A stretch of DNA of 64,000 bases from Alphaproteobacteria bacterium (GCA_026982705.1 JALSGP010000007.1:1-64000); one strand, 5' to 3'; counted from the first letter of the stretch, positions 5,044 to 38,478 are shown. Notes: generated by a model not told the origin, from the letters alone. Translations and numbers: made by a program.

Positions 5044-5049
5044 GCTCTG

Positions 5050-7208: not shown

Positions 7209-7291
7209 CCGGATCCCCCGCACGGTCCCCTCCGCCGTCTCTGCGGGGTCCATTCTAGCGGGACGCGGCACCGGCGACGAGCCGGAAACCC

Positions 7292-7930
7292 TCACCGGCG
7301 CCCGCGCGGCCCGGTGCCAGCCCGTTCCACCCGCACCAGCTTCAGCCGCTCGCGGCGGCCGTCGGCCCACTTCTTGGACCGCTCCACCCAGTGCCCGAGC
7401 CCGGAGGACCAGTACCAGACATGGGTGCGGAGCACCTCGCCGGTCTCCGGGTCGTGACGGCGGCAGACCACCTTCCAGGTGGGGAAGACGCCGGCCGGCA
7501 CCACCCGCTCGCGGGCGCCGGCGGCGCGACAACGCCAGAGTTCCGTGCGCCTGGTCCGGCGCCCGTCCTTCTTGCGGATCACCTCGTAGGTGACGCGGAC
7601 GGTGCGGCGGCTGCCCTTGCGGGCGGGGTGCAGATCCCCGCGCACCTCGAGGGCGACGGTACGCCCGCGGGTGCGGCGGCCGTCCCATGCCACCATGGGC
7701 ACGAAGGGATCGACCTTGACGAAGGTAACGCCGCGGTCAGTGCGCCAGGTCACGCGCTCACCGTCCACCCGCACCACCTCGCGGACCGTCTCGCGGCCGC
7801 GGGCATCCACGTAGACGAAGCGATCGCCCGGAAGATGGCCGGTCCGTTCGAGGGCGGGGGTGGCGCAGGCGGCGAGCAGCAGCAGACCGCAGCCGGCGAT
7901 GGCGGTGCGCAGGATCGTCAGGCGGCGCAC
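7292..7930 (-). CDS. Putative lipoprotein of unknown function
   Basis: It encodes 212 residues. The leader MRRLTILRTAIAGCGLLLLAAC ends in the lipobox LAAC, so the product is predicted to be cut and lipidated by Lsp. GTG 7930 was chosen because GGAG lies 8 nt upstream and the lipobox then falls at the normal position. The mature protein is short, basic and beta-rich (RTVRVTYEVIRKKDGRRTRR), with a Trp-rich patch near HVWYWSSGLGHW; the shape suggests a beta-barrel or lipocalin-like fold, but I do not recognise the family. Its first 13 bp overlap the end of the hydrolase gene, so translation of the two is probably coupled. Confidence 0.75.
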   Translation of the reverse strand: MRRLTILRTAIAGCGLLLLAACATPALERTGHLPGDRFVYVDARGRETVREVVRVDGERVTWRTDRGVTFVKVDPFVPMVAWDGRRTRGRTVALEVRGDLHPARKGSRRTVRVTYEVIRKKDGRRTRRTELWRCRAAGARERVVPAGVFPTWKVVCRRHDPETGEVLRTHVWYWSSGLGHWVERSKKWADGRRERLKLVRVERAGTGPRGRR

Positions 7931-8727
7931 GGCAGGGACTCCTTTTCGGCAGAGACGTGGCACAGTTCGGTGAAGATCCGTTCCACCAGCCGCCCGCGGG
8001 CCGGGTCCACACAGGCGGCGAAGTCGTGACCGGCGCCGGGCAGCAGCTGGAGGACCACATCGACGGCGAGGCCCCGTCGGTGGGCCGCCGTCTCGAGGGC
8101 CGCGCACCAGCGGCGCGCCCGCTCCAGCCGGTTCGTGCCCTGCAGGGCGTCGAGGCGGCTGCCGCTACGGACCGTCTCGTCGCGCTCGATGTCCTCGCTG
8201 CCCACGAACACGCGGATGGGACGGCGCAGGAAGGGTTCGAGACGGAAGACGAGATCGGGCAGCCGCCGGCATGGCGCGAGCCCGTAGGGATAGCGGAGGT
8301 CCGGATCGGGCATGGTGTACCAGCCGGCCGCCGCGAGCAGGAGGACGTCGACGAGATGCGGCCAGGCGAGGGCGAAGCGGTGGGCGAACTGGGCGCCGCC
8401 GGAGAAGCCGAAGAGGGAGAAGCGCCGCACCGGCCGCCCGCGACGCGCCTCGAGATCGGCGAGGGCGGCGAGGAGGCCCAGATCGGCCCGCCGGCCGCGG
8501 CGCCCGAGCCGCTGATAGTCCGGATAACGGGTGGCGTCGAACAGCGGCGCCATCACCGTCCAGCCGCAGCGCCGCGCCGTCTCGTGGAACGCCCGCGCAT
8601 GCGCCTCGGCGTTGCGGGAGATGCCGTGCACCGCGACCAGCAGCGGAGAGGCGGGATCGTCCGCCGCACCCGCCAGCCAGTAGGGCGGGTGGTCGTCACG
8701 ACCGGCGATCCTCTCGATCCGATCCAT
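7918..8727 (-). CDS. Alpha/beta hydrolase
   Basis: It encodes 269 residues of the alpha/beta-hydrolase fold. VAVHGISRNAEAHA supplies the oxyanion-hole strand and turn, GFSGG is the nucleophile elbow with the catalytic Ser, and GAGHDF carries the C-terminal His. The layout resembles PHB-depolymerase-like or feruloyl-esterase-like hydrolases; there is no signal peptide, so it is probably cytoplasmic. ATG 8727 is preferred over GTG 8745 because AAAGGAGT lies just upstream. It sits between the ABC exporter, whose TGA overlaps the alternative GTG, and the lipoprotein, suggesting a role in the same process. The substrate is not evident. Confidence 0.85.
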   Translation of the reverse strand: MDRIERIAGRDDHPPYWLAGAADDPASPLLVAVHGISRNAEAHARAFHETARRCGWTVMAPLFDATRYPDYQRLGRRGRRADLGLLAALADLEARRGRPVRRFSLFGFSGGAQFAHRFALAWPHLVDVLLLAAAGWYTMPDPDLRYPYGLAPCRRLPDLVFRLEPFLRRPIRVFVGSEDIERDETVRSGSRLDALQGTNRLERARRWCAALETAAHRRGLAVDVVLQLLPGAGHDFAACVDPARGRLVERIFTELCHVSAEKESLPCAA

Positions 8728-8741
8728 CGACCGTACTCCTT

Positions 8742-10418
8742 TCACATCGCATGTCCCGGAAACACCACGAGCCCGGCCGAGGCCGGCCGCCCCACCGCGC
8801 GGCCACCCTCGAGCCGGATCTCCAGATCGACGGGTTCCCCTTCCGAAATCTCGTGGGTCGCCGTCACCAGCGTGCCGGGAAAGGCCGCGAGCACCCGCCG
8901 CACCGCCTCGCGGGCGGCGTCGTCGAGACCGGCCTCGGGCTCGTCCACCAGGAGCACCCGCGGTTCCGCCAGCAGCGCCCGGGCGAGGCCGAGGCGCAGC
9001 CGCTCGCCGGCCGAGAAGTTGCGGCCGCCCTGGGCCACGGGTGCATCGAGGCCGCCCGCGTGGCGGATGCGCGCTCCGAGCCCCAGCTCCTCCAGGAGCG
9101 CCAGCACGCGCGTCTCGTCGACGGGGTCGTCACGGCCGTAGAGCAGGTTCTCGCGCAGGGTCCCGGCGAGCAGGGGGAAGGCCTCACCGGCGGCCGCCAC
9201 GGCCCGGCGCCGGGCGCGCGGCCGCAGGGCGTGGACCCGCACGCCGTCGATCTCCACCCGGCCGCGGTCGGGGCGCAGGACGCCGGCCATCACCAGCAGC
9301 AGCGTGGTCTTGCCAGCGCCGCTGGGACCGGTGAGGCGCACGCGGCTGCCGGGCTCGGCGACGAAGTCGATGCCGGCGAGACGGTCGCCCAGGGCGAGGT
9401 CCCGGACCACCAGCCGTCCCCGGCCCGGCGGCAGTTCCGCGCGCCCGCGCCGGCGCACCGCCGGCGCCGTGAGCAGCGCCGCCACCTTCTCGAAGGCGAC
9501 CCGTGCCTCGGCCTGGCGACCGCGAAGCCGGGTCAGCTCCCGGACCCGCGGCGCCAGCAGCCCCACCAGCAGCATCCCCGCCACCACCGTCCCGGGGGTG
9601 CTCCATCCCTCGCGCACGGCCAGGCCCCCGACCAGCACCACCACCGCGGGGCTGGCCAGCGCGCCCGCCTCCCCCACCGCGGCGAGCCCGGCGAGGCTGC
9701 GGGCGCGCGCGATGGCGGCGGCGGCCAGCGCCCGGCTGGCGCGGGCGAGGCGGCGGGCCTCCCCCCGCTCGTGGGCGAAGGCCTCGACGGTCACGAGTCC
9801 CTGCAGACGGTCGTGGAAGAGGGCGGCGAAGCGCCCGCGCCGGCGCCGCAGGCGACGGCTGGCCTCGGCCACGTCGCGTCCCTCCAGATGGCTCGCCAGT
9901 GCCACCACGCCGACCGCCAGCGCCGCCACCGCCGCCAGCAGCGGATCCAGCACCGCCAGCACCAGCAGGGTGCCGCCGATGGCCACGGCGTTGACCACCG
10001 CCCGCGCCACCCCGCGCCGCAGCCAGTTGCCGATGGCCGAGAGATCGGAGCTGGTGCGCACCAGCACGGTGCCGACGCGACCGCCGGTCACCCGCAGCGG
10101 ATCGAGCCGGAAGAGACGGCCGATCACCCGTTCCCGCAACAGATGGACGTAGCCCTGGGCGAAGCGTTCGGCCTCGATGCGCTCGAAGCGTCGCAGCCAG
10201 GCGGCGAGGCCGGCGGCGACGGCGAGGCCCGCCCCGAGCGGCATCAGGCCCGCGGTGCCGTCCGCGGCCACCGCCCGGTCGAAGCCGTCCCGCACCAGGC
10301 GGACGGCGACCACCCCGAGGACGGCCTGGACCACGCCGGCCGTCACCAGCCGCGCCAGCCGGCGACGACCGTCGCCGGCCGCAAGGGGGGGCAGGGGTTC
10401 AGGCAGCGACCAGGGCAT
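8742..10418 (-). CDS. ABC exporter half-transporter (membrane domain fused to ATPase)
   Basis: It encodes 558 residues. The N-terminal half (about 20-310) is an ABC transporter type-1 membrane domain with around six helices. The C-terminal half is the ATPase, with Walker A GPSGAGKTT, a divergent signature FSAGERLRLG instead of LSGGQ, Walker B VLLVDEP and H-loop ATHE. One fused half-transporter would work as a homodimer; this layout is typical of lipid, peptide or drug exporters. It starts inside the last 20 bp of the P-loop NTPase gene and ends at GTGA with the hydrolase, so the three are co-translated. The cargo cannot be read from the sequence. Confidence 0.9.
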   Translation of the reverse strand: MPWSLPEPLPPLAAGDGRRRLARLVTAGVVQAVLGVVAVRLVRDGFDRAVAADGTAGLMPLGAGLAVAAGLAAWLRRFERIEAERFAQGYVHLLRERVIGRLFRLDPLRVTGGRVGTVLVRTSSDLSAIGNWLRRGVARAVVNAVAIGGTLLVLAVLDPLLAAVAALAVGVVALASHLEGRDVAEASRRLRRRRGRFAALFHDRLQGLVTVEAFAHERGEARRLARASRALAAAAIARARSLAGLAAVGEAGALASPAVVVLVGGLAVREGWSTPGTVVAGMLLVGLLAPRVRELTRLRGRQAEARVAFEKVAALLTAPAVRRRGRAELPPGRGRLVVRDLALGDRLAGIDFVAEPGSRVRLTGPSGAGKTTLLLVMAGVLRPDRGRVEIDGVRVHALRPRARRRAVAAAGEAFPLLAGTLRENLLYGRDDPVDETRVLALLEELGLGARIRHAGGLDAPVAQGGRNFSAGERLRLGLARALLAEPRVLLVDEPEAGLDDAAREAVRRVLAAFPGTLVTATHEISEGEPVDLEIRLEGGRAVGRPASAGLVVFPGHAM

Positions 10419-22185: not shown

Positions 22186-23295
<1,110 letters not shown>

Positions 23296-23359
23296 GGCCC
23301 GGCCGTGGCCTCGGTGCGCGCATGGGTCCGCGGGAGTCCCGGTCGGGGAGGTAGGTTCG

Positions 23360-24319
23360 GTGGCACGAGCCGCGGCGCGTAGCCCCACCTCCGAGGACAT
23401 CCGCCGGCTGCTGTGGCAGCGCCGCCTGCGTCTGTGGTGGCTGCTGCTGCGCCGCGTCCTCCGCCGCTTCGCCATCCTCTCCGGGGCGGTGCTGTGTGCC
23501 GTGCTGCTGGTGGCGGCCAAGCTCGACATCGCCCTGGTCCGCTTCGTCCAGGCCCGCGCCGGCGATGCCGCCGCGCTGGTGCTCGATGCCGTCCGCCTGC
23601 CCCTTGCCGCCGTCGGCCGGCTGGGCGAGACGGTCGGGGAGATCGTGGCGGTGTGGCGCGAGAACCGCCGGCTGGAGGCGGAGAACCGGCGGCTGCTGGA
23701 ATGGCGGCGCGAGGCCATCCGTCTGTCGGTGGAGAATCAGGCGCTCCGGCGCATGCTGGCCATGCCCACGGTGCCCATGCCCATGCGCCGCACCGCCGCC
23801 CGGGTGGTGGCGGACCCCGGTTCCGCCTTCGCCCACACCCGCCTCGTCGACGCCGGCAGCGAGCGCGGCATCCGCGTGGGCATGCCGGTGATGGACGACC
23901 ACGGCCTCGTGGGCCGGGTGGTGGCGGTGGGACGCTGGAGCGCCCGCATCCTGCTGCTGCTGGACTCCGCCTCCCGCATTCCGGTGGTGGTGGAACCCTC
24001 CGGCGACCACGCCATCCTCGAGGGGAACAACGGCCCCCATCCCGGCCTGCGCTTCCTGCCGCTGGAGCCGCGGGTCGAGGTGGGCGACCGGGTGCTCACC
24101 AGCGGCGCCGGCGGCCTGTTCCCGCCGGGGCTGCCGGTGGGCGAGGTGGTGGCGGTGGGCGAGCGCGGGGTGGAGGTGCGTCCCTACGCCGACTGGAGCC
24201 GCCTCGATCACGTGGTGGTGCTGGACTGGCGGCCGCTGCCGCCACCGCCCGCCGATGCCCAGCCGGCCCCGCCCGTCGCCGTCCCCGCCCCCGCCGCGGC
24301 CCCGGAGGCCGGGACATGA
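23360..24319 (+). CDS. mreC: Rod shape-determining protein MreC
   Basis: It encodes 319 residues. A basic N-terminal tail leads to one membrane helix (about 34-54, ILSGAVLCAVLLVAAKL). A coiled coil (about 95-130, WRENRRLEAENRRLLEWRR) and a periplasmic beta domain (about 140-295) follow, which interact with PBP2 to activate elongation. The C-terminal tail is rich in Pro and Ala. The GTG start is preceded by GGGGAGG. Its stop overlaps the mreD ATG. Confidence 0.94.
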   Translation: MARAAARSPTSEDIRRLLWQRRLRLWWLLLRRVLRRFAILSGAVLCAVLLVAAKLDIALVRFVQARAGDAAALVLDAVRLPLAAVGRLGETVGEIVAVWRENRRLEAENRRLLEWRREAIRLSVENQALRRMLAMPTVPMPMRRTAARVVADPGSAFAHTRLVDAGSERGIRVGMPVMDDHGLVGRVVAVGRWSARILLLLDSASRIPVVVEPSGDHAILEGNNGPHPGLRFLPLEPRVEVGDRVLTSGAGGLFPPGLPVGEVVAVGERGVEVRPYADWSRLDHVVVLDWRPLPPPPADAQPAPPVAVPAPAAAPEAGT

Positions 24320-24849
24320 TCGGCGCCCGCACCACCCTCGCCCGTCTGGCGCGCCGGCAGCTCCCCATGGTCAGCGCCCTCGCCGCGGTGCTGGTGGACC
24401 TGGCGCCGCTGCCGGATGCCGCACCCCACAGCCTGTTTCCCCTGGCGACCCCGATGGTGACCTTCCACTGGGCGCTGCGGCGGCCGGATCTGTTCACCCC
24501 CCTCTCCTTCCTGCTGGTGGGGCTGGTGCTGGACGCCGCGGGCGGTCTGCCGCTGGGGACCACCGGCCTCGCCCTGCTGGCCGCCGCCGCCCTCGTCCAC
24601 GGCCGCGAACGCGTCCTGCTCGCCCAGCCGCCGCTGCTGCTGTGGGGGGCCTTCGCCCTCTTCCTCGCCGTCTTCGAGGGCGTGCGCTGGAGCGTGGTGG
24701 GGCTGTGGCACGGTCTCGAGGCGCGCCCCCTCGGCCCGCTGCTGGGCGAGTATCTGATCACGGTCTCGGTGCAGCCGCTCATGGGACCGCTGCTGGCGCC
24801 GCTGGAGCGGTGGGTGGGACGGATCCGCCATGCGACCGGATCTCGATAG
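24316..24849 (+). CDS. mreD: Rod shape-determining membrane protein MreD
   Basis: It encodes 177 residues with about five hydrophobic segments and the family-typical stretch FLLVGLVLDAAGGLPLGTTG. MreD is an integral inner-membrane partner of MreC in the elongasome. Its ATG overlaps the mreC stop, and its last 20 bp overlap the start of mrdA, so the operon is tightly coupled here. Confidence 0.92.
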   Translation: MIGARTTLARLARRQLPMVSALAAVLVDLAPLPDAAPHSLFPLATPMVTFHWALRRPDLFTPLSFLLVGLVLDAAGGLPLGTTGLALLAAAALVHGRERVLLAQPPLLLWGAFALFLAVFEGVRWSVVGLWHGLEARPLGPLLGEYLITVSVQPLMGPLLAPLERWVGRIRHATGSR

Positions 24850-26707
24850 GGCGAAGCTCTTCACCCGCCGGGCGGTGGTGGTGGGCGCGGCGCAGCTCGC
24901 CGCCTTCGGCGCCCTGGTGGTGCGACTGTGGCAGCTCCAGGTGCGCGACGGGGCCCGCTATGCCGAGCTCGCCCGCGACAACCGGGTGGCCATCCGCTTC
25001 CTCGCCCCGCCGCGGGGCCGCATCTTCGACCGCCGCGGTCGGCCCCTCGCCGTCAACGTGCCCACCTACCGGGTGCGGCTGGTGCGCGAGCGGGCGCCCG
25101 ATCTCGACACGACCCTCGCCCGCCTCGCCCGCATTCTCCCGCTGCCGCCGCGCCGGCTGGCGGAGGTGCGCCGCCAGGCCCTCGCCCGTCGTCCCTTCGT
25201 CCCCGTCACCATCCGCGACGATCTCTCCTGGGAGGAGCTCGCCCGCATCGCCGTCCATCTGCCGGAGCTGCCGGGTCTGCTCCTGGAATCGGCGCTGCTG
25301 CGCGACTATCCCCACGGCCCCGTGCTCGCCCACATCCTCGGCTATGTGGGGCCGGTGGCCAAGGAGGACCTGCGGCGCGACCCGGATCCGCTCCTGCGCC
25401 TGCCCGAGTTCCGCATCGGCAAGACCGGTCTCGAGCGCACCTACGACCGCCGTCTGCGCGGCCGCGCCGGCCGGGTGGAGGTGGAGGTCAACGCCGTCGG
25501 TCGCGAGATCCGGGCCATCTCGCGCGACGAGGGCGAGGCCGGCGAGGATCTGGAGATCAGCCTCGACCTCGAGCTGCAGCGTTTCTGCTTCGACCGTCTC
25601 GCCCGCGAGCGGGCGGCCGCGGCGGTGGTGCTGGATGCCGTCACCGGCGCGGTGCTGGCCTCCGCCTCGATTCCCGGCTACGATCCGCGCCCCTTCACCA
25701 ACGGCATCGACGCCCGCACCTGGCGCCAGCTGGTGGGCAATCCCCTCCATCCGCTGGTGGACAAGTGCATCCAGGGCCAGTATCCGCCCGGTTCCACCTT
25801 CAAGATGGTCACCGCCATCGCCGCCCTCGAGGCGGGGCTGGTGAGCCCGGGCTACGAGGTGTTCTGTCCCGGCTACCTGGATCTCGGCAACACGCGCTTC
25901 CACTGCTGGAAGCGCGGCGGGCACGGTCGCATCGCCCTGGTCCAGGCGCTGGCCCAGTCCTGCGACGTCTATTTCTACGATCTCGCCCGCCGTGTCGGCA
26001 TCGACGCCCTCGCCGCCACCGCCCGCCGCTTCGGCATCGGCGAGCGTTTCGGCGTCGATCTGCCGGGCGAACGGAGCGGTCTCATGCCCACCCGCGCCTG
26101 GAAGCGGCGCCGCTTCGGCCGTCCCTGGCAGAAGGGCGAGACGCTGATCGCCGGCATCGGCCAGGGCTTCGTGCTGGCGACACCGCTCCAGCTCGCGGTG
26201 ATGACGGCGCGGCTGTGCAACGGCGGGCGGGCGGTCCGCCCCTGGTTCGTGCGCGACCGCTTCCCCGAGGCGGCGGATCCCACCGGCCGCAGCTGGCCCT
26301 CCCTCGAACTGCCGCGCGCCGGGCTGGAGGCGGTGCTGCGGGGCATGTACGAAACGGTCAACGGCCGTCTCGGCACCGCCCGGGCATCACGCCTCGATCT
26401 CCCCGGCATCGCCATGGCCGGCAAGACCGGCACCAGTCAGGTCCGCCGGATCACGCGCAAGGAGCGTCTCACCGGCGCCTACCGGGAGGAGAAGCCCTGG
26501 GAGGAGCGCGATCACGCCCTCTTCGTCTGCTACGCGCCTTTCGAGGCGCCGCGCTACGTGGTGGCGGTGGTGGTGGAACACGGCGGCAGCGGGGCCAGGA
26601 CGGCCGCGCCCATCGCCCGCGACATCATGCGCCGGACCCTCGAGATCGATCCGGCGGAGACCGGCGTGCTCACCGCCGCCCTCGCCCGCGGGAAGGACCG
26701 GGGATGA
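24830..26707 (+). CDS. mrdA: Penicillin-binding protein 2 (peptidoglycan transpeptidase)
   Basis: It encodes 625 residues. One N-terminal membrane anchor (about 14-36) is followed by the dimerisation domain containing PPRGRIFDRRGRPLA and by the transpeptidase domain. The catalytic motifs are STFK (PGSTFKMV), SCD in the SxN position (AQSCDVYFYD), and KTG (AGKTGTSQV). It crosslinks lateral-wall peptidoglycan together with RodA. Its stop overlaps the RodA ATG. Confidence 0.96.
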   Translation: MRPDLDRAKLFTRRAVVVGAAQLAAFGALVVRLWQLQVRDGARYAELARDNRVAIRFLAPPRGRIFDRRGRPLAVNVPTYRVRLVRERAPDLDTTLARLARILPLPPRRLAEVRRQALARRPFVPVTIRDDLSWEELARIAVHLPELPGLLLESALLRDYPHGPVLAHILGYVGPVAKEDLRRDPDPLLRLPEFRIGKTGLERTYDRRLRGRAGRVEVEVNAVGREIRAISRDEGEAGEDLEISLDLELQRFCFDRLARERAAAAVVLDAVTGAVLASASIPGYDPRPFTNGIDARTWRQLVGNPLHPLVDKCIQGQYPPGSTFKMVTAIAALEAGLVSPGYEVFCPGYLDLGNTRFHCWKRGGHGRIALVQALAQSCDVYFYDLARRVGIDALAATARRFGIGERFGVDLPGERSGLMPTRAWKRRRFGRPWQKGETLIAGIGQGFVLATPLQLAVMTARLCNGGRAVRPWFVRDRFPEAADPTGRSWPSLELPRAGLEAVLRGMYETVNGRLGTARASRLDLPGIAMAGKTGTSQVRRITRKERLTGAYREEKPWEERDHALFVCYAPFEAPRYVVAVVVEHGGSGARTAAPIARDIMRRTLEIDPAETGVLTAALARGKDRG

Positions 26708-27855
26708 CGCCGCACGCCCGCATCCGTCCGCTGCGACTCGACCTGGGCGAGAAGCTCCGCGCCCTCAACTGGGCGCTGGTGCTGCTGGTCCCGATCCTCG
26801 GTCTCGTGGGCTATCTGGTGCTCTATTCCGCTGCCGGCGGCGCCCATGCACCCTGGGCCTGGCGCCACGCCGTGCGCCTCGCCGTCGGCACCCTCGTGAT
26901 GCTGGCGGTCGCCCTCACGGACGTCCGTCTCGTCTACCGTTTCGCCTATCCCGTGTTCGCGCTCTGCCTGCTGGCGCTCATGGCGGTGGACATCGCCGGC
27001 ACCCTCAGCAAGGGTGCTCAGCGCTGGCTCGATCTCGGTCCCGTCCGTCTGCAGCCCTCGGAAGTGACCAAGGTGGCGCTGGTGCTGGCGCTGGCCCGCT
27101 ATTTCCACGGGCTGCGGATCGAGGAGGTGGGACGGCCCTCGGCGCTGCTCGCCCCCCTGGGCATGATCGGTCTGCCGGCGGTGCTGGTGCTGGGCCAGCC
27201 CGATCTCGGCACGGCGGTGATGCTGGTGGCGGTGGGCGGTACGGTCCTGTTCCTCGCCGGCGTGCGCATCTGGAAGTTCCTGCTGGCGGGCGCGGCGGTG
27301 GCGGCGGCCCTGCCGGTGATCTGGGCCAATCTCCGCGACTATCAGCGCGAACGGGTGCTCACCTTCCTCGACCCCGAGCGCGATCCCCTGGGCGCGGGCT
27401 ATCACATCCTCCAGTCGTACATCGCGCTGGGATCGGGGGGTGTGTGGGGACGCGGCCTGCTCGGGGGGACTCAGGCCCAGCTCGATTTCCTGCCGGAAAA
27501 GCAGACCGACTTCGCCTTCGCGCTCCTCGCCGAGGAGACCGGCTTCGTCGGCGCCGTGCTCCTGCTTTCCCTTTACGCGACGATGGTCTTCATCGCCTTC
27601 GCCGTCGCCCTCCGCTGCGAACACCACTTCGGGCGCCTTCTCGCCGCCGGTCTCGCCGTCAATCTCGCGCTCTACGTGACGATCAACGTGGGCATGGTGG
27701 CGGGCCTGCTCCCGGTGGTGGGGGTACCGCTGCCCTTCGTCTCCTACGGCGGCACCGCCATGTTCGCGAGCCTGCTGGGTCTCGGCCTGGTGCTGTGCGT
27801 GGACGTCCACCGCCGGGTGCCGCTGCCGCGCCACCCCGGCGACCCGCCCGCCTGA
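26704..27855 (+). CDS. mrdB: SEDS peptidoglycan glycosyltransferase RodA
   Basis: It encodes 383 residues with about ten membrane helices. SEDS signatures are visible: KGAQRWLDLG, QPSEVTKVALVLALA, DLGTAVM, FLPEKQTDFAFALLAEE and the C-terminal PFVSYGGT. RodA polymerises glycan strands for elongation with PBP2. It is the last gene of the mre-mrd operon and converges on argJ with 7 bp between stops, so no separate terminator fits there. Confidence 0.95.
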   Translation: MTPHARIRPLRLDLGEKLRALNWALVLLVPILGLVGYLVLYSAAGGAHAPWAWRHAVRLAVGTLVMLAVALTDVRLVYRFAYPVFALCLLALMAVDIAGTLSKGAQRWLDLGPVRLQPSEVTKVALVLALARYFHGLRIEEVGRPSALLAPLGMIGLPAVLVLGQPDLGTAVMLVAVGGTVLFLAGVRIWKFLLAGAAVAAALPVIWANLRDYQRERVLTFLDPERDPLGAGYHILQSYIALGSGGVWGRGLLGGTQAQLDFLPEKQTDFAFALLAEETGFVGAVLLLSLYATMVFIAFAVALRCEHHFGRLLAAGLAVNLALYVTINVGMVAGLLPVVGVPLPFVSYGGTAMFASLLGLGLVLCVDVHRRVPLPRHPGDPPA

Positions 27856-27862
27856 GGGGCGC

Positions 27863-29089
27863 TCAGCTCCGGTAGCTGGCGTTGACCTCGACGTAGCCGT
27901 GGGTGAGGTCGCAGGTCCACACCACCGCCCGGCCGGGCCCGTCACCCACCCGGATCTCGATGCGCACCTCGCGGCCCTCCAGGTGCCTCCGGAGCGGCGT
28001 CTCGTCGAGATGGGGAACGGCACGCCCGTCGCGCGCCGCCGCGTAGCCGCCGAAGGCCACGGCGAGACGGTCCACGTCGATCGGCTCGCCGGCCCGGCCG
28101 ACGGCGGCGACGATGCGTCCCCAGTTGGGATCGCCGCCGGCGATGGCGGTCTTGACCAGCGGCGAGTTGGCGACGGTGAGGCCGATGCGGCGGGCGGAGG
28201 CCTCGTCCACCGCCCCCTCCACCGTGATCTCCACGAAGCGGCCGATACCCTCGCCGTCCTTGGCGATCTGGACGGCGAGCTCGCGGCACACCTCGAACAG
28301 GGCCTGCCGGAAGGCGGCCACCAGCGGCCCGTCCGCCTCGCCCAGCGGCGGGCCGCGGCGACCGGTGGCGAAGAGCAGCACCGTGTCCGAGGTGGAGGTG
28401 TCGCCGTCGACGGTCAGCGAGCCGAAGGTGGCGGGGACGACCCCGGCCAGGAGGCGCTGCAGCAGCGGTGCGGGGATGCGGGCGTCGGTGAAGAGGAAGG
28501 CCAGCATGGTGGCGAGATCGGGGGCGATCATGCCCGCCCCCTTGGCGATGCCGGCGAGGCGCACGGTGGCACCCCCCACCTCCACCGCCCGGGCCGCCCC
28601 CTTGGGATAGGTGTCGGTGGTCATGATGGCCCGCGCCGCCGGCTCCCAGGCGCCGGGCCGCAGGGCCCCCGCCAGCTCCGGCAGGGTCGCCTCGATCCGC
28701 TCCACCGCCAGCCGCTCGCCGATCACGCCGGTGGAGGCGACGAACACCTCCTCCGGTGCGCAGCCCAGGGCCGCCGCCGCCGCCGCCGCGGTCCGCCGCA
28801 CCGCCTCGTCCCCCTCCTCGCCACGGAAGACGTTGGCGTTGCCGGCGTTGACCACCAGCGCCCGGGCGCGACCGGCGGGAAGGATGCGCCGGCACCAGAC
28901 CACCGGATGGCCCACCACCCGGTTGGTGGTGAAGACGCCGGCCACCGTGGTCTCCGGCGGCAGCCGCACGAGGGCGAGATCGAGCCGGTCGGCATGGCGG
29001 ATGCCGGCGGCGGCGGCGGCCAGCTCCACGCCCGCCACCTCGGGCAGCTCCGGGAACCTGGCCGGTGCGAAGGGCGAGACGGTGGTCAC
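27863..29089 (-). CDS. argJ: Bifunctional glutamate N-acetyltransferase / ornithine acetyltransferase
   Basis: It encodes 408 residues of the self-cleaving ArgJ family, which transfers acetyl from N-acetylornithine to glutamate in the cyclic arginine pathway. The autoproteolysis site APDLATMLAFLFTD contains the conserved Thr that becomes the nucleophile of the beta chain. Other family motifs are KGAGMI and GGDPNWGR. GTG 29089 was chosen; GAGGGGAC precedes it and it overlaps the isomerase TGA as GTGA. Confidence 0.96.
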   Translation of the reverse strand: MTTVSPFAPARFPELPEVAGVELAAAAAGIRHADRLDLALVRLPPETTVAGVFTTNRVVGHPVVWCRRILPAGRARALVVNAGNANVFRGEEGDEAVRRTAAAAAAALGCAPEEVFVASTGVIGERLAVERIEATLPELAGALRPGAWEPAARAIMTTDTYPKGAARAVEVGGATVRLAGIAKGAGMIAPDLATMLAFLFTDARIPAPLLQRLLAGVVPATFGSLTVDGDTSTSDTVLLFATGRRGPPLGEADGPLVAAFRQALFEVCRELAVQIAKDGEGIGRFVEITVEGAVDEASARRIGLTVANSPLVKTAIAGGDPNWGRIVAAVGRAGEPIDVDRLAVAFGGYAAARDGRAVPHLDETPLRRHLEGREVRIEIRVGDGPGRAVVWTCDLTHGYVEVNASYRS

Positions 29090-30175: not shown

Positions 30176-31963
30176 ATGCTTCGATCTCTGCCCGGCCGCA
30201 ACGAGCGGCTGCCGTTCCGCGTCGAGGGCTTCGCCACTCTCGTCGAGGGTCTGGAATACGCCGCCCGCGGGGAGACCGGGTTCGGCTTCCACGACGGCCG
30301 CGGCCGGCTGGTGACCGTGCTCGCCTATGCCGAGCTCGCCGAGCGGGCGCGGGATCTGGCGGGGCGGCTCCTCGCCACCGGTCTCGCCCGGGGCGACCGG
30401 GTGGCGATGGTGGCCGACACCACCCCCGAGTTCGTCGTCCTCTTCTTCGCCTGCCAGTACGCCGGTCTCGTGCCGGTGCCGCTGCCGCTGCCGGTCAATC
30501 TCGGCGGTCGGGAGGCCTACATCGCCCGGCTCGCCGCCATGATGCGGGCGGCGGGGGCGGCGCTGGCGGTGGCCACCGACGACTTCCGGCCCATGCTGGC
30601 CGAGGCGGCGCGTCGCGCCGCCGTGCGGGCGACGTTGGCGCCGGCGGAGATCGCCGCCCTCGCCCCGCGGGGCCGGCCGGTCCCCTTCGGCCCCGACGAG
30701 CCCTGCTACATCCAGTACAGTTCCGGCAGCACCCGCATGCCGCGCGGGGTGCTGGTGGACCAGCGGGCGCTCGTGGCCAACGCCCGGGCCATCGCCCGCG
30801 ACGGACTGCGGCTGCGGCCCGGCGACCGCTGCGTTTCCTGGCTGCCCCTCTATCACGACATGGGACTGGTGGGCTGCTGTCTCACCCCCACCCTCGCCCA
30901 GATCCCGGTGGACTATCTGGCCCCCACCGCCTTCGCCCGCCGGCCGCTGCTGTGGATCGAACTCCTCGCCCGCTATCGGGCCACCATCTCCTACGCCCCC
31001 ACCTTCGGCTACGAGCTCGCCGCCCGCCGGGCCGAGCGCGCCGGCGGGGTGGAGCGTTTCGACCTTTCCGCCTGGCGGGTGGCCGGGCTCGGCGGCGAGA
31101 TGATCCGGCCGGCGGTCCTCGAGCGCTTCGCCCGCGTGTTCCGGCCCGCCGGCTTCGATCCCCGCGCCTTCCTCGCCAGCTACGGCCTCGCCGAGGCGAC
31201 GCTGGCCGTCACCATGGCGCGGCCGGGCGAGGGACTGCGCTGCGACCTCGTGCGCCGTGACGAGACGTTGGAACGGGCGCGGCTGGCGGTGCCGGCCCGG
31301 GTGGGCGACGCCGTGCCGGTCCGCGACTTCGTCCGCTGCGGCCGGCCGCTTGCCGGCTATCGGGTGGAGATCCGCGACGAGAGGGGCCGGCCGCTGCCGG
31401 AACGCCACGTGGGGCGGGTGTGCGTGGCTGGCCCCAGCCTCATGCGCGGCTACTTCCGCGATCCCGCCGCCAGCGCCCGCGCCTTCGAGCCGGACGGGCT
31501 GCTGGACACCGGCGACCTCGGCTATCTCGTCGACGGCGAGCTGGTGGTGACGGGTCGCGCCAAGGACCTGATCATCGTGGGCGGGCGCAACATCTGGCCG
31601 CAGGATCTGGAATGGGCGGTGGAGCGCCTTCCCGAGGTGCGGGCGGGCGACGTGGCGGCCTTCGCCGTCGCCGGCGGCGAGGACCGCGAGGAGGTGGTGG
31701 TGGTGGTGGTGGAATGCCGCCTCGCCGACCCTGCCGCCCGCGCGCGCCTGCGCCGGGAGGTGCGGGGGACGGTGGCGCGCACCGCCGGCATCGACTGCCG
31801 GGTGGCGCTGGTGCCGCCCCGCTCCCTCGCCTACACCACCTCCGGCAAGCTCTCGCGGGCCGCCGTCCGGGCGCGCTGGCTGCGCGGCGAGCTCGTCGAC
31901 CTCGACGACGCCGCACCCGTGCGGCCGGAAGCCGTCCCCGCCCGCGAGGTGGAAGCCGCCTGA
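30176..31963 (+). CDS. Fatty acid-AMP ligase / acyl-ACP synthetase of ceramide synthesis
   Basis: It encodes 595 residues of the adenylate-forming superfamily. Motifs are QYSSGSTRMPRGV (P-loop), SYGLAEAT (A5), DTGDLGYLVDGEL (A7), GRAKDLIIVGGRNIWPQDLE (A8) and a C-terminal TTSGKLSR with the catalytic Lys. The FAAL-like subtype loads a fatty acid onto a carrier protein rather than CoA. An acyl carrier protein gene lies two genes downstream, and the set matches the Caulobacter ceramide cluster, so the product probably feeds the dedicated ACP. ATG 30176 is preceded by AGGAGAAGGA. Confidence 0.85.
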   Translation: MLRSLPGRNERLPFRVEGFATLVEGLEYAARGETGFGFHDGRGRLVTVLAYAELAERARDLAGRLLATGLARGDRVAMVADTTPEFVVLFFACQYAGLVPVPLPLPVNLGGREAYIARLAAMMRAAGAALAVATDDFRPMLAEAARRAAVRATLAPAEIAALAPRGRPVPFGPDEPCYIQYSSGSTRMPRGVLVDQRALVANARAIARDGLRLRPGDRCVSWLPLYHDMGLVGCCLTPTLAQIPVDYLAPTAFARRPLLWIELLARYRATISYAPTFGYELAARRAERAGGVERFDLSAWRVAGLGGEMIRPAVLERFARVFRPAGFDPRAFLASYGLAEATLAVTMARPGEGLRCDLVRRDETLERARLAVPARVGDAVPVRDFVRCGRPLAGYRVEIRDERGRPLPERHVGRVCVAGPSLMRGYFRDPAASARAFEPDGLLDTGDLGYLVDGELVVTGRAKDLIIVGGRNIWPQDLEWAVERLPEVRAGDVAAFAVAGGEDREEVVVVVVECRLADPAARARLRREVRGTVARTAGIDCRVALVPPRSLAYTTSGKLSRAAVRARWLRGELVDLDDAAPVRPEAVPAREVEAA

Positions 31964-31974
31964 GCCCGTCCGGC

Positions 31975-32934
31975 ATGGCCGTCGTCGCGCTCACCGGAGC
32001 CACCGGGTTCATCGGCCGCCACACCGTCCACCGCCTCGCCCGGGACCATCGCGTGCGGGCGCTGGTGCGCACGCCGGCGGAGGATCTGGCCGCCCTCGGC
32101 GTGGAGACGGTGCGGGGCGATCTCGACGACGACGCGGCCCTCGCCCGTCTGGTGCGCGGGGCGGAGGTGGTGCTGCACCTGGCCGGCGCCGTCCACGCCC
32201 GCGACCGCCGCACCTTCTTCCGCGTCAACGCCGACGGCAGCGAGCGTCTCGCCCATGCCGCGGCCGCCGCCCGGGTGTCGCGCTTCGTGCTGGTCTCCTC
32301 GCTGGCGGCCCGCGAGCCCCACGTCTCCGCCTACGCCGCCAGCAAGGCGGAGGCGGAGGCGCGGGTGCTGGCGGTGGGCCGGCCCTTCGAGCTGGTGATC
32401 GTGCGCCCGCCCGCCATCTACGGTCCCGGTGACCGCGCCACCCTCGACCTGGTCCGGGGCCTCGCCCGCGGCCTGCTGCCGCTGCCGGCCGCCCGCCGTG
32501 GCCGCTTCTCGCTCCTCTACGTGGAGGACCTGGCGGAGCTGCTGGTGCGGCTGGTGGACGCGCCGGGGCTCGACGGGCTGGTGCTGGAGCCGGACGACGG
32601 CCGTACCGGCGGCTGGGGCTGGGACGAGCTCGCCGCCGTCGCCACCACCGTCACCGGCCGGCCGGTACGGGTCCTGCCCATCCCGCGGCCGCTGGCGTGG
32701 CTGCTGGCCCTCGCCGGCGAGGTGGCGGCCCGCCTCCGGGGCACGGCGCCCCCGCTTCCCCGCGACCGGCTGGGCCAGCTCTACCATCCCGACTGGGTGT
32801 GCGCGCCCCAGGCGCTGTGCCATCTTCCCGACTGGCGGCCGCGGGTGGACCTGGCGGAGGGGCTGCGCCGCACCCTCGACTGGTACCGGGCCTCCGGCCG
32901 GCCGCAGCGGCTTTTCGCGGGAGAAGGACCGTGA
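31975..32934 (+). CDS. cerR: NAD-dependent epimerase/dehydratase family, CerR-like ceramide reductase
   Basis: It encodes 319 residues of the extended short-chain dehydrogenase family. ALTGATGFIGRHT is the dinucleotide-binding Gly motif, and SAYAASKAEAE carries the YxxxK catalytic pair. In Caulobacter the corresponding protein (CerR) reduces the 3-keto group of the sphingoid intermediate. Membrane-like segments near 240-260 (LAWLLALAGEV) would suit a lipid substrate. It starts 11 bp after the ligase and ends GTGA with the ACP gene. The cerR assignment rests mainly on gene context. Confidence 0.8.
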   Translation: MAVVALTGATGFIGRHTVHRLARDHRVRALVRTPAEDLAALGVETVRGDLDDDAALARLVRGAEVVLHLAGAVHARDRRTFFRVNADGSERLAHAAAAARVSRFVLVSSLAAREPHVSAYAASKAEAEARVLAVGRPFELVIVRPPAIYGPGDRATLDLVRGLARGLLPLPAARRGRFSLLYVEDLAELLVRLVDAPGLDGLVLEPDDGRTGGWGWDELAAVATTVTGRPVRVLPIPRPLAWLLALAGEVAARLRGTAPPLPRDRLGQLYHPDWVCAPQALCHLPDWRPRVDLAEGLRRTLDWYRASGRPQRLFAGEGP

Positions 32935-33185
32935 CCGACCGCAGCGCCATCCTCGAGACCGTGCGCGACCTGCTCCGCGCCCAGTGCCCGGATGCCGGCG
33001 AGATCGGCCCGGAGAGCGATCTCGCGGCCGACCTCGCCATCGACTCGGCGGCGGCCATGGATCTGGTGATGGAGGTGGAGGAACGCTACGACCTCGACAT
33101 TCCTCTCAACGAACTGGCCGATCTCCGCACCGTGGGCGATCTGGTGGAGCTGGTCGCCCGTCGCCTCGAGGCCCGGGAGGGATGA
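32931..33185 (+). CDS. Dedicated acyl carrier protein for sphingolipid synthesis
   Basis: It encodes 84 residues with the four-helix carrier fold. The phosphopantetheine site is the Ser in AIDSAAAMDLVME, and the segment EERYDLDIPLNELADL forms helix III. It would carry the acyl chain handed to serine palmitoyltransferase. The GTG overlaps the end of the reductase gene and the TGA overlaps the start of the transferase gene (ATGA), so the three are translationally coupled. Confidence 0.92.
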   Translation: MTDRSAILETVRDLLRAQCPDAGEIGPESDLAADLAIDSAAAMDLVMEVEERYDLDIPLNELADLRTVGDLVELVARRLEAREG

Positions 33186-34390
33186 AGGACATCCTCGCCA
33201 AATACGAGCCCCTCGCGGCCCGCCGCCGGCGTCTTCTGGGGGAGGGCGGGCACGATCCCTTCGGCCTGCGCATCGAGCGGGTGCTCTCGCCCACCCGCGC
33301 CCTGGTGGACGGACGGGAGACCATCCTCCTCGGCACCAACAACTATCTCGGCCTCACCTTCGACCCGGCGGCGGTGGAGGCCGGGGTGGAGGCGCTGCGG
33401 CGCTGCGGCACCGGCACCACCGGTTCGCGCATCGCCAACGGCACCTACGCGCTCCACCGCGAGCTGGAGGAGGACTTCGCCCGCTTCCTCGACCGCCGCC
33501 ACTGCATCGTCTTCACCACCGGCTATCAGGCCAATCTCGGCATGATCGCCGGCCTCGCCGGCCCCCGCGACGTCATCCTCGTGGACGCCGACTCCCACGC
33601 CAGCATCTACGACGGCTGCCGGCTCTCCGGCGCCACCGTGATCCGCTTCCGCCACAACGATCCCGAGGATCTGGACCGGCGCCTCGCCCGTCTCGGCGAG
33701 GTGGAGGGCTCGCTGCTGATCGTGGTGGAGGGCCTCTACAGCATGCTGGGCGACGTGGCGCCCCTCGCCGACCTCGTGGCGGTGAAGCGGCGCCACGGCG
33801 CCTTCCTGCTGGTGGACGAGGCCCACTCCTTCGGCGTCTACGGCGCCCGCGGCCGCGGCCTCGCCGAACACGCGGGCGTGGAGCGGGAGGTGGACTTCGT
33901 GGCCGGCACCTTCAGCAAGAGCCTGGGGGCGGTGGGCGGCTTCGGCGCCTCCGACCATCCCCGCTTCCCGCTGCTGCGTTACGCCGCCCGCCCCTACATG
34001 TTCACCGCCTCGCCGAGTCCGGCCACCATGGCCTCGGTGCGGCGGATCCTCGGTCGCATCGAGGCCGAGCCGGAACTGCGCCGCCGCCTCTGGACCAACG
34101 CCGAACACCTGCACGCCGGGCTCAGGGCGCTGGGCCTCGAGGTGGCGGCACCGCCCTCGCCGGTGGCGGCGGTGGTGCTGCCGGACGAACGGACGGCGGT
34201 GGCGGCCTGGACGCTGCTGCTGGAGCGGGGGGTCTACGTCAATCTGGCGCTGCCCCCGGGCACGCCGGGACGCCGGTCGCTGCTGCGGGCGAGCGTCTCG
34301 GCGGCCCACGAACGGCAGGAGATCGACCGCGCCCTCGCCGTCTTCGCCGCCGTCGCCCGCACCCTCGGGCTCGGCGGGGGCGCGACCTGA
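33182..34390 (+). CDS. spt: Serine palmitoyltransferase
   Basis: It encodes 402 residues of the PLP-dependent alpha-oxoamine synthase family, which condenses serine with an acyl thioester to give 3-ketosphinganine. Visible features are GTNNYLGL (N-terminal), TTGSRIANGTYALHRELE, DADSHASIYDG, VDEAHSFGVYG (Asp contacting the pyridine N) and the PLP Lys in GTFSKSLGAVGG. KBL and BioF are relatives, but the coupled ACP and neighbouring ceramide genes favour serine palmitoyltransferase. A weak stem (34414-34433) follows, without a T-tract. Confidence 0.9.
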   Translation: MKDILAKYEPLAARRRRLLGEGGHDPFGLRIERVLSPTRALVDGRETILLGTNNYLGLTFDPAAVEAGVEALRRCGTGTTGSRIANGTYALHRELEEDFARFLDRRHCIVFTTGYQANLGMIAGLAGPRDVILVDADSHASIYDGCRLSGATVIRFRHNDPEDLDRRLARLGEVEGSLLIVVEGLYSMLGDVAPLADLVAVKRRHGAFLLVDEAHSFGVYGARGRGLAEHAGVEREVDFVAGTFSKSLGAVGGFGASDHPRFPLLRYAARPYMFTASPSPATMASVRRILGRIEAEPELRRRLWTNAEHLHAGLRALGLEVAAPPSPVAAVVLPDERTAVAAWTLLLERGVYVNLALPPGTPGRRSLLRASVSAAHERQEIDRALAVFAAVARTLGLGGGAT

Positions 34391-34574
34391 GCGACACTTG
34401 GCGGCGCGTCCCCCCGCCTTACCTTACGGGCGGCACCGCCTCGCGGGCTCCGGAACAGGAACGCGGCGGCCGGGCGGAGCGACTCCGCGGGGCCGGGCGC
34501 GTGCGATGCGGTGCGGGAATCCCGGAGGAGAACCAACCAGTCACGGCGAGCGGCGCGGAGGTCGAGACGGGTCG

Positions 34575-35321
34575 ATGAGTACGGACCGCGAGTTCATCGA
34601 ACGGGCCGAGCGGGCGAGCATGTGGGCATGGCCGCCGCGGGAGACCTTCTACGTCTCCGGCTGGATCCTGCAGGCCGGCGAGGCCTCCATCCCCCGCATC
34701 AATGCGGCCAAGACCCTGCGCTTCGAACGGGGCGCCGACCTCGCGCGCGCCATCGAACGGGTGGAGGGCTGGTACGCCGAGCGCGACCGCACGCCGCGCT
34801 TCCAGATCACCGATCTGGTGGAGCCCGAGGAGCTGGACGGCGCACTGGAGGCGCGCGGCTACGCCCGCGTGGGCGCCACCTCCGTCTGGTGGCGGCCGCT
34901 GGACGAGCTGCCGCCGGCCGATCCCGCCATCGAGATCGAGACCCGCCCCCGGGCGGCGGTGATGAACGCCATCGCCGATCCCAACTGGGACGAGACCATG
35001 CGCGAGGAATACGCCGCCATGTTCGAGCGCATCAAGCGGCCGCTCGCGCTCGCCGTCGCCTTCGAGGGCGAGTTCCCGGTGGCCGGCGGCGCCTGCGTGG
35101 TGGTGGACGACCTCGCCATCATCCACAGCGTCTTCACCCAGCCCATGTTCCGCGGCCGCGGCCACGGCCGCGCCATCCTCGCCCGCCTGCTGGGCTGGGC
35201 CCGCGCCATGGACGGCCGCGAGGCCGTGGCGCACGTGCCGGACGGCAGCGAGATCGCCGAGGCCATGGTGCGCCGCTTCGCCTTCACCCGCCGCTACGGC
35301 TACGCCTTCCGTCGCCGCTGA
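34575..35321 (+). CDS. GNAT-family bacterial ceramide synthase (bCerS-like)
   Basis: It encodes 248 residues. The C-terminal half has the GNAT acetyl/acyl-CoA site RGRGHGRAILARLL, and strand-helix order fits a GNAT fold with an extra N-terminal helical region. In Caulobacter a GNAT protein is the ceramide synthase that N-acylates the sphingoid base. Location 184 bp downstream of spt in the same direction supports that role here. The N-terminal stretch MWAWPPRETFYVSGW is aromatic-rich and may contact lipid. GGAGG lies about 13 nt before the ATG. A generic GNAT acetyltransferase remains possible. Confidence 0.72.
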   Translation: MSTDREFIERAERASMWAWPPRETFYVSGWILQAGEASIPRINAAKTLRFERGADLARAIERVEGWYAERDRTPRFQITDLVEPEELDGALEARGYARVGATSVWWRPLDELPPADPAIEIETRPRAAVMNAIADPNWDETMREEYAAMFERIKRPLALAVAFEGEFPVAGGACVVVDDLAIIHSVFTQPMFRGRGHGRAILARLLGWARAMDGREAVAHVPDGSEIAEAMVRRFAFTRRYGYAFRRR

Positions 35322-35460: not shown

Positions 35461-38400
35461 GTGACACGACGCGAGGACATCTGGCCCATCGATCCGGGAC
35501 GGCGCTTCGACCTCCGTGAGCTCCGCGATCTGCCCGCGGAACGGCTGCGCACCGGCGCCGACGGCGACGCGGTGCTGGTCTTCCGCGGCGAGAGCGCCGC
35601 CTGGCACAACAGCCTCTTCGTCTATCGGGTGGACGCATCCGGCCGCTTGGTGGACCTCCGGCCGGTCTGGTCCGATGCCAGCGATTCCCGCTTCGATCCC
35701 GCCCGTCCGCGCGATCTCGACGGCCGCGGCCCGCTGCGGGAAGGCGATTCCGTCGCCCTCTCCGACGTCTACGGCCACGTCCTCGCCCCCGGCGAGCGCT
35801 TCGGCCTGCTGCTGGTGGCCGACGGTGCCCGCCGCATCGGCACCGTCCATTTCGCCGACGGGGGGAGTTGGCGGCTCGTGGACGTGCGCACCGGCACCGC
35901 GCCCGGGCCCGATACCGGAGCCGGCGACGTGCGGCTGATCCACGAGGACGACGCCGGCGTGCGGAGCTGGTCGCGGGGCCTGTGGTTCGCCACCGATCCC
36001 GACCCCGACGGCGGCCCCGGCCACGGCCTCCACCCGGACGGGGTCGAACACGTGGCGTGGGCGGTGGACGGGGACGGACGGCTGTGGCTCGCCTTCGAGG
36101 ATCTGGACACGCGGGCCTACGACCGTCCCGCCCGCAACTTCGTCGATCTGGTGCTGGAGGTCCGCACGACGCCCCTTGCCGCCCCCGCCTGCCCGCTGCC
36201 GCTGGACCGGGCGCATCTGGACGGGGGCACGGGCTCCCTCGTGACCGGCGCCGATCCCGGCGGACGCTTCGGCCACGCCCTCGCCCGCGGCGACTTCGAC
36301 GGCGACGGGGCGGTGGATCTGGCGGTGGGAGCGCCGGATGCGGCCGGCGGTCGCGGGACGGTGACGGTGCTCTCGGGCTTCGCCGGCCGTCCCCTCGACC
36401 TCGCGCCGGCCCGCACCGTGACGCTGGTGGGCGACGCCGCGGGCGACCGCCTCGGCACATCCCTCGCCGCCGCCGACGTGGACGGCGACGGCCGCGACGA
36501 GCTGCTGGTGGGCGCCATCGGCGTCGACGGCGGCGGTCCCGACAGCGGCGCCGTCTACGTGGTGGACGTGGAGACGGCCGGCGACGGATCGGTGGGGGAC
36601 GCGGCCGCCCTGCGCCTCGACGGCCTCGCCGCCGGCGACGAGCTCGGGCGTTCCCTCGACGGCGGCATGGACGTGGACGGCGACGGCTTCGAGGACTTGG
36701 TGGCCGGCGCCCGCCTCGCCGAGCCGGACGACGCCCGCTACAGCGGTGGCCTCTCCTATGTGGTCTTCGGCGCCGCCGGCGGTCCCGCGGGCGATCTCGC
36801 CGCCCTCGACGGGGATTCCGGCTTCCGCATCGAGGGCGGCGGCCGCTTCGATCAGTCCGGCCGCAGCGTGGCGCTGCTGGGCGACATCGACGGCGACGGT
36901 TTCGCCGACGTGGCGGTGGGCGCGCCCGATGCCGATCCGCTGGGGCGGACCAACGCCGGCGAGGTGCTGGTGGTCCTCGGCGGTGAGGACGGATTCCCCG
37001 CGAGCCTGGCGCCGGCGGATCTGGACGGGGTCCGCGGCTTCCGCGTCGCCGGCCCGCGGGCCGGCGCCTTCGCCGGCTTCCACGTGGCGGCGGCCGGCGA
37101 CGTGGACGGCGACGGCTTCGACGATCTGCTCGTCGGCAGCTACGGGACCCTCGACGACGCCGGCCGCGGCGGCGCCTTCCTCGTCTACGGGCGCGAGGAC
37201 TGGCCGACGGTGGTGGACCTCGCCGCGCCCGCGGCCGGCACCGTCACGCGTCTCCTCGGTCCGGGCGGGCACGTGGCCGGAGGTCTCGGGCGGGCGGTGG
37301 CGGCGGCCGGCGACGTGGACGGCGACGGCTTCGACGATCTGCTGGTGGGCGCCCGCTACAGCGATCCCGGCGGCCCCGGCGGCGAGGGCATCGCCTATCT
37401 GGTTTGGGGGCGCGACGACCGGCCCGCCGAGATCGATCTCGCCACGCTGGAGGCGGACGAGGCCGGCTGCCGGCTGCTGGGCGCCACCGCCGACGCCTAT
37501 GCCGGCTTCGCCTTCGCCGGTCCCGCCGACATCGACGGCGACGGCCTCGACGACCTGGTGGTGGGGGCACCGGCCCCCCCCGGCGGCACCGATCCCGGAA
37601 CGGTGTTCGTGGTCTACGGCTCCGCGGACGAGTCCGGCGGTTCCGGACACGACGGCGGATCCGGGAAGGGAAATGGCGGAAACGGGGGAAGCGGCGGCTT
37701 CCCCACGCCCGCCGCATTCGCCGTTCCACCCCCGCCTCGGGGCGACGGTGGAAGCGCATCCTCGCCCGAAGAAGAAGGACACGACCGCGGCGCGATCACG
37801 GGCGGGGGAGAGGCCCCCGCATCGGGCCGCGGCGGTCCGGGCGATGCCGCATCCGCCCCGGACGGGCATCCGCCACCGCCTCCGTCCACGCCCCACGACA
37901 CCGCCGGCGAGGGGGGCGGATCCGGGGGCAGCCGTGCCGCCGGCGACGATGCCGTGGCGACCGGCGGTGATCCCGCGGCCGGCGCGTGGCGCCCGGACGA
38001 CGGAACGGCGGATCCGCCCCCCGGGGCCGAGGACGTCCCGTCACCGCCGGCGGACCCGGAGGTGGACGGTGTCCCCCGCGACGGGACGGGCCGGGGCGGG
38101 AGCCCCGTCCCGGCGGACGACCTCCCGGGGCGCGGGAGCGGGGCCGGCGACGGCGCCCCGATGGTGGACGAGGGCGGTGACGACGGCCGGGGACGGGCCG
38201 CCGCCGGCGAGGTCCCGGCCCCTCCGGCGGCGATACCGGCGGATGACGATGTCCCCGCGCCCGCAGGAGGCGGCGCCGCGTCCGAGGAGCGTGCGGAGCC
38301 CGGCGGTTCCGGGCCGGAGGCGGGCCTGCCTTCCGACTTCGGGGACGGCGGCGCCGACGGGCCCGAGCCGGTGTTCGTGGGCGGCGGCCACGGTCTCGTG

Positions 38401-38478
38401 AGCCTGCTGTTCGGCGACATCGCACCGCGGGCCGGCTGGGCGGCCCACTTCGGGCTCGACGCGGACCCCCAGCCCTGA
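35461..38478 (+). CDS. Large FG-GAP repeat protein with DUF4114-like N-terminus and Gly/Pro-rich tail
   Basis: It encodes 1005 residues. Residues about 25-240 resemble DUF4114 domains (HNSLFVYRVDASG, ARNFVDLVLEV). Seven FG-GAP/integrin-alpha-like repeats follow (near 278, 339, 402, 476, 547, 618 and 689), each with a calcium-type loop such as DVDGDGFDDLLVGA. Residues about 720-960 are disordered, rich in Gly, Pro, Asp and Ser, and end with a compact LVSLLFGDIAPRAGW segment. There is no classical signal peptide; type I secretion is possible since DUF4114 and calcium-loop proteins often leave that way. A cell-surface or extracellular calcium-binding protein is likely. GTG 35461 has GGGAG 7 nt upstream. 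Confidence 0.82.
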   Translation: MTRREDIWPIDPGRRFDLRELRDLPAERLRTGADGDAVLVFRGESAAWHNSLFVYRVDASGRLVDLRPVWSDASDSRFDPARPRDLDGRGPLREGDSVALSDVYGHVLAPGERFGLLLVADGARRIGTVHFADGGSWRLVDVRTGTAPGPDTGAGDVRLIHEDDAGVRSWSRGLWFATDPDPDGGPGHGLHPDGVEHVAWAVDGDGRLWLAFEDLDTRAYDRPARNFVDLVLEVRTTPLAAPACPLPLDRAHLDGGTGSLVTGADPGGRFGHALARGDFDGDGAVDLAVGAPDAAGGRGTVTVLSGFAGRPLDLAPARTVTLVGDAAGDRLGTSLAAADVDGDGRDELLVGAIGVDGGGPDSGAVYVVDVETAGDGSVGDAAALRLDGLAAGDELGRSLDGGMDVDGDGFEDLVAGARLAEPDDARYSGGLSYVVFGAAGGPAGDLAALDGDSGFRIEGGGRFDQSGRSVALLGDIDGDGFADVAVGAPDADPLGRTNAGEVLVVLGGEDGFPASLAPADLDGVRGFRVAGPRAGAFAGFHVAAAGDVDGDGFDDLLVGSYGTLDDAGRGGAFLVYGREDWPTVVDLAAPAAGTVTRLLGPGGHVAGGLGRAVAAAGDVDGDGFDDLLVGARYSDPGGPGGEGIAYLVWGRDDRPAEIDLATLEADEAGCRLLGATADAYAGFAFAGPADIDGDGLDDLVVGAPAPPGGTDPGTVFVVYGSADESGGSGHDGGSGKGNGGNGGSGGFPTPAAFAVPPPPRGDGGSASSPEEEGHDRGAITGGGEAPASGRGGPGDAASAPDGHPPPPPSTPHDTAGEGGGSGGSRAAGDDAVATGGDPAAGAWRPDDGTADPPPGAEDVPSPPADPEVDGVPRDGTGRGGSPVPADDLPGRGSGAGDGAPMVDEGGDDGRGRAAAGEVPAPPAAIPADDDVPAPAGGGAASEERAEPGGSGPEAGLPSDFGDGGADGPEPVFVGGGHGLVSLLFGDIAPRAGWAAHFGLDADPQP
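37084..37343 (+). repeat. Perfect 47-bp direct repeat inside the FG-GAP gene
   Basis: The 47 bases at 37084-37130 are identical to those at 37297-37343, 213 bp apart in the same frame. Each copy encodes the core of an FG-GAP repeat (VAAAGDVDGDGFDDLL). The match at silent positions suggests recent duplication or gene conversion, and the pair could recombine to gain or lose a blade. Confidence 0.9.

Follow-up and report, generated by a model that had tools for sequence, protein, structure and literature searches.

A predicted four-gene ceramide operon in a Geminicoccaceae alphaproteobacterium, with the ceramide synthase homologue encoded on another contig

The closest described systems are those of Caulobacter crescentus and Escherichia coli BL21. 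In C. crescentus, the region CC_1168-CC_1152 contains aasR, cerR, acpR, spt, cerS and the CPG genes, and the roles of the genes of this ceramide phosphoglycerate region have been described (PMC11324152). The products of aasR, cerR, acpR and spt ensure the loading of a fatty acid on AcpR, its condensation with serine and the reduction of the product (PMC9386255, PMC11324152, PMC11087976), the Caulobacter CerR being periplasmic (PMC11087976). The known bacterial ceramide synthase (bCerS) is CC_1154, and its E. coli homologue is YghO (PMC9386255). The cerS gene is always found in an operon apart from aasR/cerR/acpR/spt (PMC11324152): in Caulobacter it lies beside lptF2/lptG2 and a nucleotidyltransferase gene, both operons being contained within one region of ~20 kb. 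The E. coli BL21 island comprises yghO, a fatty acyl-AMP ligase gene, cerR, acp, spt, lptG and lptF, with yghO adjoining the ligase gene on the opposite strand.

The window analyzed here, 64 kb long, is the first part of contig C7 (99,791 bases) from an alphaproteobacterial genome of 2.66 Mb that is 99.66% complete. Its features of interest are the following:

30176-31963, plus strand: aasR-like fatty acyl-AMP/acyl-ACP ligase, 595 amino acids (NF006624; identity to spt-linked ligases)
31975-32934, plus strand: cerR-like reductase of the SDR/epimerase family, 319 amino acids, ATG start (PF01370; identity to cerR)
32931-33185, plus strand: acpR-like dedicated acyl carrier protein (ACP), 84 amino acids, GTG start (PF00550; Ser39)
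33182-34390, plus strand: spt, serine palmitoyltransferase (SPT), 402 amino acids, ATG start (NF047599; identity; motifs)
34391-34574, plus strand: 184-bp leader separating spt from the GNAT gene (direct reading; alignment)
34575-35321, plus strand: Rv0428c-type tandem-GNAT acetyltransferase, 248 amino acids, ATG start (PF24553, PF00583)

The layout reported in the first-pass annotation is correct: five plus-strand frames span 30176-35321, the reductase/ACP and ACP/synthase pairs each overlap by 4 bp, and 184 bp precede the GNAT gene. The ligase and reductase genes are separated by 11 bp. Each of the five frames has a Pfam match far above chance; a codon signal is also present in all five and lends them weak further support, the codon model having been partly trained on these same genes. 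The ligase-reductase-ACP-synthase order is that of the C. crescentus region and of the BL21 island, and is common to Caulobacter vibrioides, Pseudomonas umsongensis and other Geminicoccaceae. The segment 30176-34390 is thus a predicted aasR-cerR-acpR-spt operon covering the early steps of ceramide synthesis. The best explanation of the locus, supported with high confidence, is that this alphaproteobacterium, a member of the HRbin39 genus in the Geminicoccaceae, carries such a four-gene ceramide operon, that its true bCerS is encoded on contig C46, and that the GNAT gene is an independent neighbor with its own leader, located beside spt by chance in this genus.

A search of the genome with YghO retrieves one gene, on the minus strand of C46 at about 93858-94997 (E-value of 1.5e-91). 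With E-values up to 1 this remains the only match, and the GNAT gene of the window is not among the results. Identity of the C46 product is 40% with YghO, 45% with its Caulobacter counterpart (over about 375 amino acids in both cases) and 62% with that of the Geminicoccaceae KatS3mg117, and it aligns over its full length with nine family members. CC_1154/YghO homology and co-occurrence with spt decide which gene is bCerS, and the C46 gene displays both. The gene heads a block whose boundaries come from a simple gene caller:

C46:85001-105000, positions 2967-9997 of that stretch, minus strand: bCerS, nucleotidyltransferase, metallophosphoesterase, lptF2, lptG2, DAGK-family ceramide kinase and CC_1161-like genes

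Overlaps of 4 bp join bCerS, nucleotidyltransferase, phosphoesterase and lptF2. The genes of the block match the corresponding genes of the C. vibrioides locus L142, which were assigned to CC_1161, CC_1160, CC_1158, CC_1156, CC_1155, CC_1154 and CC_1153 on the basis of the account given in PMC11324152; by this likeness, it would be a phosphosphingolipid synthesis and export block. Three further proteins of the Caulobacter locus, presumed to be CC_1159, CC_1166 and CC_1152, had no match in searches of the genome; these were run without a positive control, and the CC_1152 query lies near the locus edge, so that its identity is unsure. As in Caulobacter, the bCerS gene belongs to an operon distinct from that of spt, together with lptF2/lptG2 and a nucleotidyltransferase gene, in conformity with the rule quoted above. 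The distance differs: whereas the two Caulobacter operons share one region, spt and bCerS are here on different contigs (C7 and C46), at least about 57 kb apart. The arrangement also departs from that of BL21, where yghO adjoins the ligase gene. The complete genome of KatS3mg117 (AP024683.1) possesses counterparts of all eleven genes, and there the aasR-spt block and the block running from bCerS to the CC_1161-like gene form one convergent cluster, with spt and bCerS 7.2 kb apart; the present genome is split at that junction.

Co-occurrence was surveyed in 60 genomes, namely this one and its relatives. The spt gene was counted at 50% identity or more, and the weaker matches of four genomes (36-39%), either other oxoamine synthases or ambiguous cases, were left out. 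Both spt and bCerS are present in 28 genomes and both are absent from the remaining 32, with 0 exceptions (Fisher 1e-17, not a strict probability since the genomes are related). The GNAT gene does not follow this pattern, being found in 17 of the 28 genomes with spt and in 6 of the 32 genomes that lack it. Of the 28 genomes, 11 have spt and bCerS within 5-9 kb of each other and three have them far apart on a shared contig; the other 14 carry them on separate contigs, but many of these assemblies are fragmented. In HRbin40, 88 kb separate the two genes on one contig. Judging from relatives rather than from a tree, the cluster was probably broken apart at the junction of spt with the CC_1161-like gene in this genus and HRbin40, the GNAT gene being placed after spt later, in part of the genus. 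Both spt and bCerS are missing from 6 of 31 Geminicoccaceae genomes (G005, G012, G013, G021, G022 and G026), which suggests that the pathway is lost or gained as a unit in this family. To note, the bCerS match of one genome (L210, G042:C1:1323067-1324242) contains one in-frame TAA stop; this copy may be broken, misassembled or ending early.

The product of the GNAT gene belongs to another family. It matches PF24553 (Rv0428c_C) over nearly its full length (4e-13, 50 bits for a gathering score of 27.2) and PF00583 (4.6e-9). Its AlphaFold model has a pLDDT of 93, and a fold search with it leads to tandem-GNAT acetyltransferases, while a sequence search of the PDB yields weak matches only. The RGRGHG motif, of the acetyl-CoA-binding GNAT type, is intact. 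The protein is an Rv0428c-type tandem-GNAT acetyltransferase and very probably lies outside the ceramide pathway. The 184-bp leader that precedes its gene aligns across the three genomes of the genus that share the spt-GNAT arrangement (G000, the present one, G002 and G003). It contains a possible promoter, TTGGCG-N16-TACCTT at 34398-34425, a weak motif; a consensus scan of the leader for promoters and terminators reported nothing, this site included.

Could the protein be the N-acetylglutamate synthase of arginine synthesis (C-NAGS, Cg3035-like)? This proposal concerns the GNAT gene only and fits the four-gene explanation. The CG3035 family model NF049894 is its top NCBIfam match (E-value of 1.6e-17), Cg3035 has been shown to be an N-acetylglutamate synthase (PMC3827942), and argJ (27863-29089) is 5 kb distant. 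However, the match reaches 63.7 bits for an equivalog cut-off of 280, Cg3035-type synthases are described as confined to Corynebacterineae (PMC3827942), and, by eye, the gene has no arginine-synthesis neighbors in the relatives examined. Such a function is unlikely, and no substrate can be assigned to the protein because its score is so far below the C-NAGS cut-off.

Its position next to spt raises another question. This adjacency, observed only in G000, G002 and G003, three of the four surveyed genomes of the genus, could hint at a link, and its conservation together with the leader and with an intact acetyl-CoA motif would be compatible with an accessory sphingolipid enzyme recruited in the genus beside the true bCerS, N-acetylating for example the sphingoid base or a (ceramide) head group. 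The neighborhoods of the gene elsewhere argue against it: in G001, of the same genus, it lies between purH and yajC, and sister-genus orthologues adjoin unrelated genes, as in G016, where it is located between moaE and an MFS gene (by eye, G004 and G018 have like neighbors). The 184-bp gap moreover favors a separate transcript, and recruitment of this kind is improbable.

The first-pass annotation went further and took the GNAT gene for the ceramide synthase gene, adjoining spt and completing a five-gene block. Besides the adjacency in three members of the genus, this proposal draws on the description of bCerS as an N-acyltransferase (PMC11324152), and the sequence of the GNAT protein, taken alone, may be compatible with a function in acyl transfer. 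It is nevertheless very improbable, and as to homology it is already refuted: profiles of 12 GNAT and 10 bCerS sequences align with an hhalign probability of 0.45%, and the best profile matches of the protein are to unrelated acetyltransferases of the Rv0428c_C/CG3035 type. The GNAT gene is also missing in 11 of the 28 spt genomes, and C46 carries a gene that is clearly bCerS. By family, as far as sequence comparison can tell, the GNAT protein is not a bCerS, although the two may share a remote GNAT fold. Neither YghO nor bCerS has a match in Pfam or NCBIfam, and any GNAT gene adjacent to spt therefore invites misnaming; the present assignment corrects an annotation that would misplace the ceramide synthase beside spt. 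PF04339 (FemAB-like) was also considered as a model for bCerS and rejected: it has no match in this genome and strong matches in relatives without spt, and YghO is not matched by it or any other Pfam family.

The identities of the four operon genes were established individually. The ligase passes the NCBIfam fatty acyl-AMP ligase model NF006624 (771.7 bits, cut-off 600) and shares 49% and 44% identity with the spt-adjacent ligases of Caulobacter and E. coli BL21, respectively; membership of this family and linkage to acpR-spt identify it as AasR. The reductase matches PF01370 (1.4e-25), harbors the GATGFIG and YAASK motifs, and occupies the same position as the spt-cluster cerR of Caulobacter (43% identity) and E. 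coli BL21 (38%). The ACP exhibits a PP-binding domain (PF00550, 2.5e-13) with its phosphopantetheine serine, Ser39, within a DSA motif, and 46% identity to Caulobacter AcpR over 54 amino acids; these features and its location upstream of spt are those of AcpR. The synthase passes the SPT equivalog model NF047599 (607.5 bits, cut-off 500). Its identity reaches 59% with Caulobacter Spt, 53% with E. coli Spt and 70% with that of KatS3mg117, and the active-site motifs DADSH, DEAHS and TFSKS (the latter with the PLP lysine) are conserved with respect to the E. coli and Caulobacter proteins. The score with the HemA model is 210 bits, under its cut-off of 338, and HemA is the sole other match to the synthase within the genome. 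The product of 33182-34390 is thus, on these profile and motif matches, a predicted serine palmitoyltransferase. That it might instead be BioF or Kbl, in a block not devoted to ceramide, has next to no likelihood: the PLP superfamily is common to all of them and the BioF model reaches 328.8 bits, but this is under its cut-off of 426, the Kbl model also stays below its own, the nearest solved structures are SPTs (2x8u, 2jg2), the gene order is that of characterized ceramide clusters, and the synthase gene co-occurs perfectly with bCerS. Profile searches, identities and order hence bear out the first-pass assignment of the ligase, SDR, ACP and oxoamine synthase to ceramide gene classes. The claim of an encoded ceramide pathway holds for the genome, which contains the full ceramide gene set, and falls for the "complete" five-gene block, whose fifth gene is unrelated.

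With gene identities, order, genomic separation and co-occurrence as observed, synthesis of ceramide phospholipids through the known pathway is very likely in this organism, bCerS and spt being apart. The reactions are proposed from the characterized Caulobacter and E. coli orthologues. AasR would load a fatty acid on the dedicated carrier AcpR, and Spt would condense the acyl chain with L-serine into 3-oxo-sphinganine. The ketone would be reduced by CerR, before or after N-acylation, an order that is debated, and N-acylation would be performed by the bCerS encoded on C46. Finally, the products of the C46 block would convert ceramide to a phosphosphingolipid and ensure its export. The pathway itself, of the Caulobacter type, is already known; it is documented here in a new host, a Geminicoccaceae genus with HRbin39 and HRbin40 as nearest named relatives.

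Upstream of the operon, a cell-elongation run recognized by eye, mreB-mreC-mreD-PBP2-rodA, is located at 22255-27855 on the plus strand, and only argJ and a PPIC-type PPIase gene, both on the minus strand, lie between this run and the spt operon. Downstream of the GNAT gene, a gene at 35461-38478 (plus strand) encodes a 1005-residue FG-GAP repeat protein. In G003, a relative of this protein is also encoded downstream of the GNAT gene (L172:2601-3914, by eye), and in G002 a malate/lactate dehydrogenase gene occupies the place of the FG-GAP protein gene.
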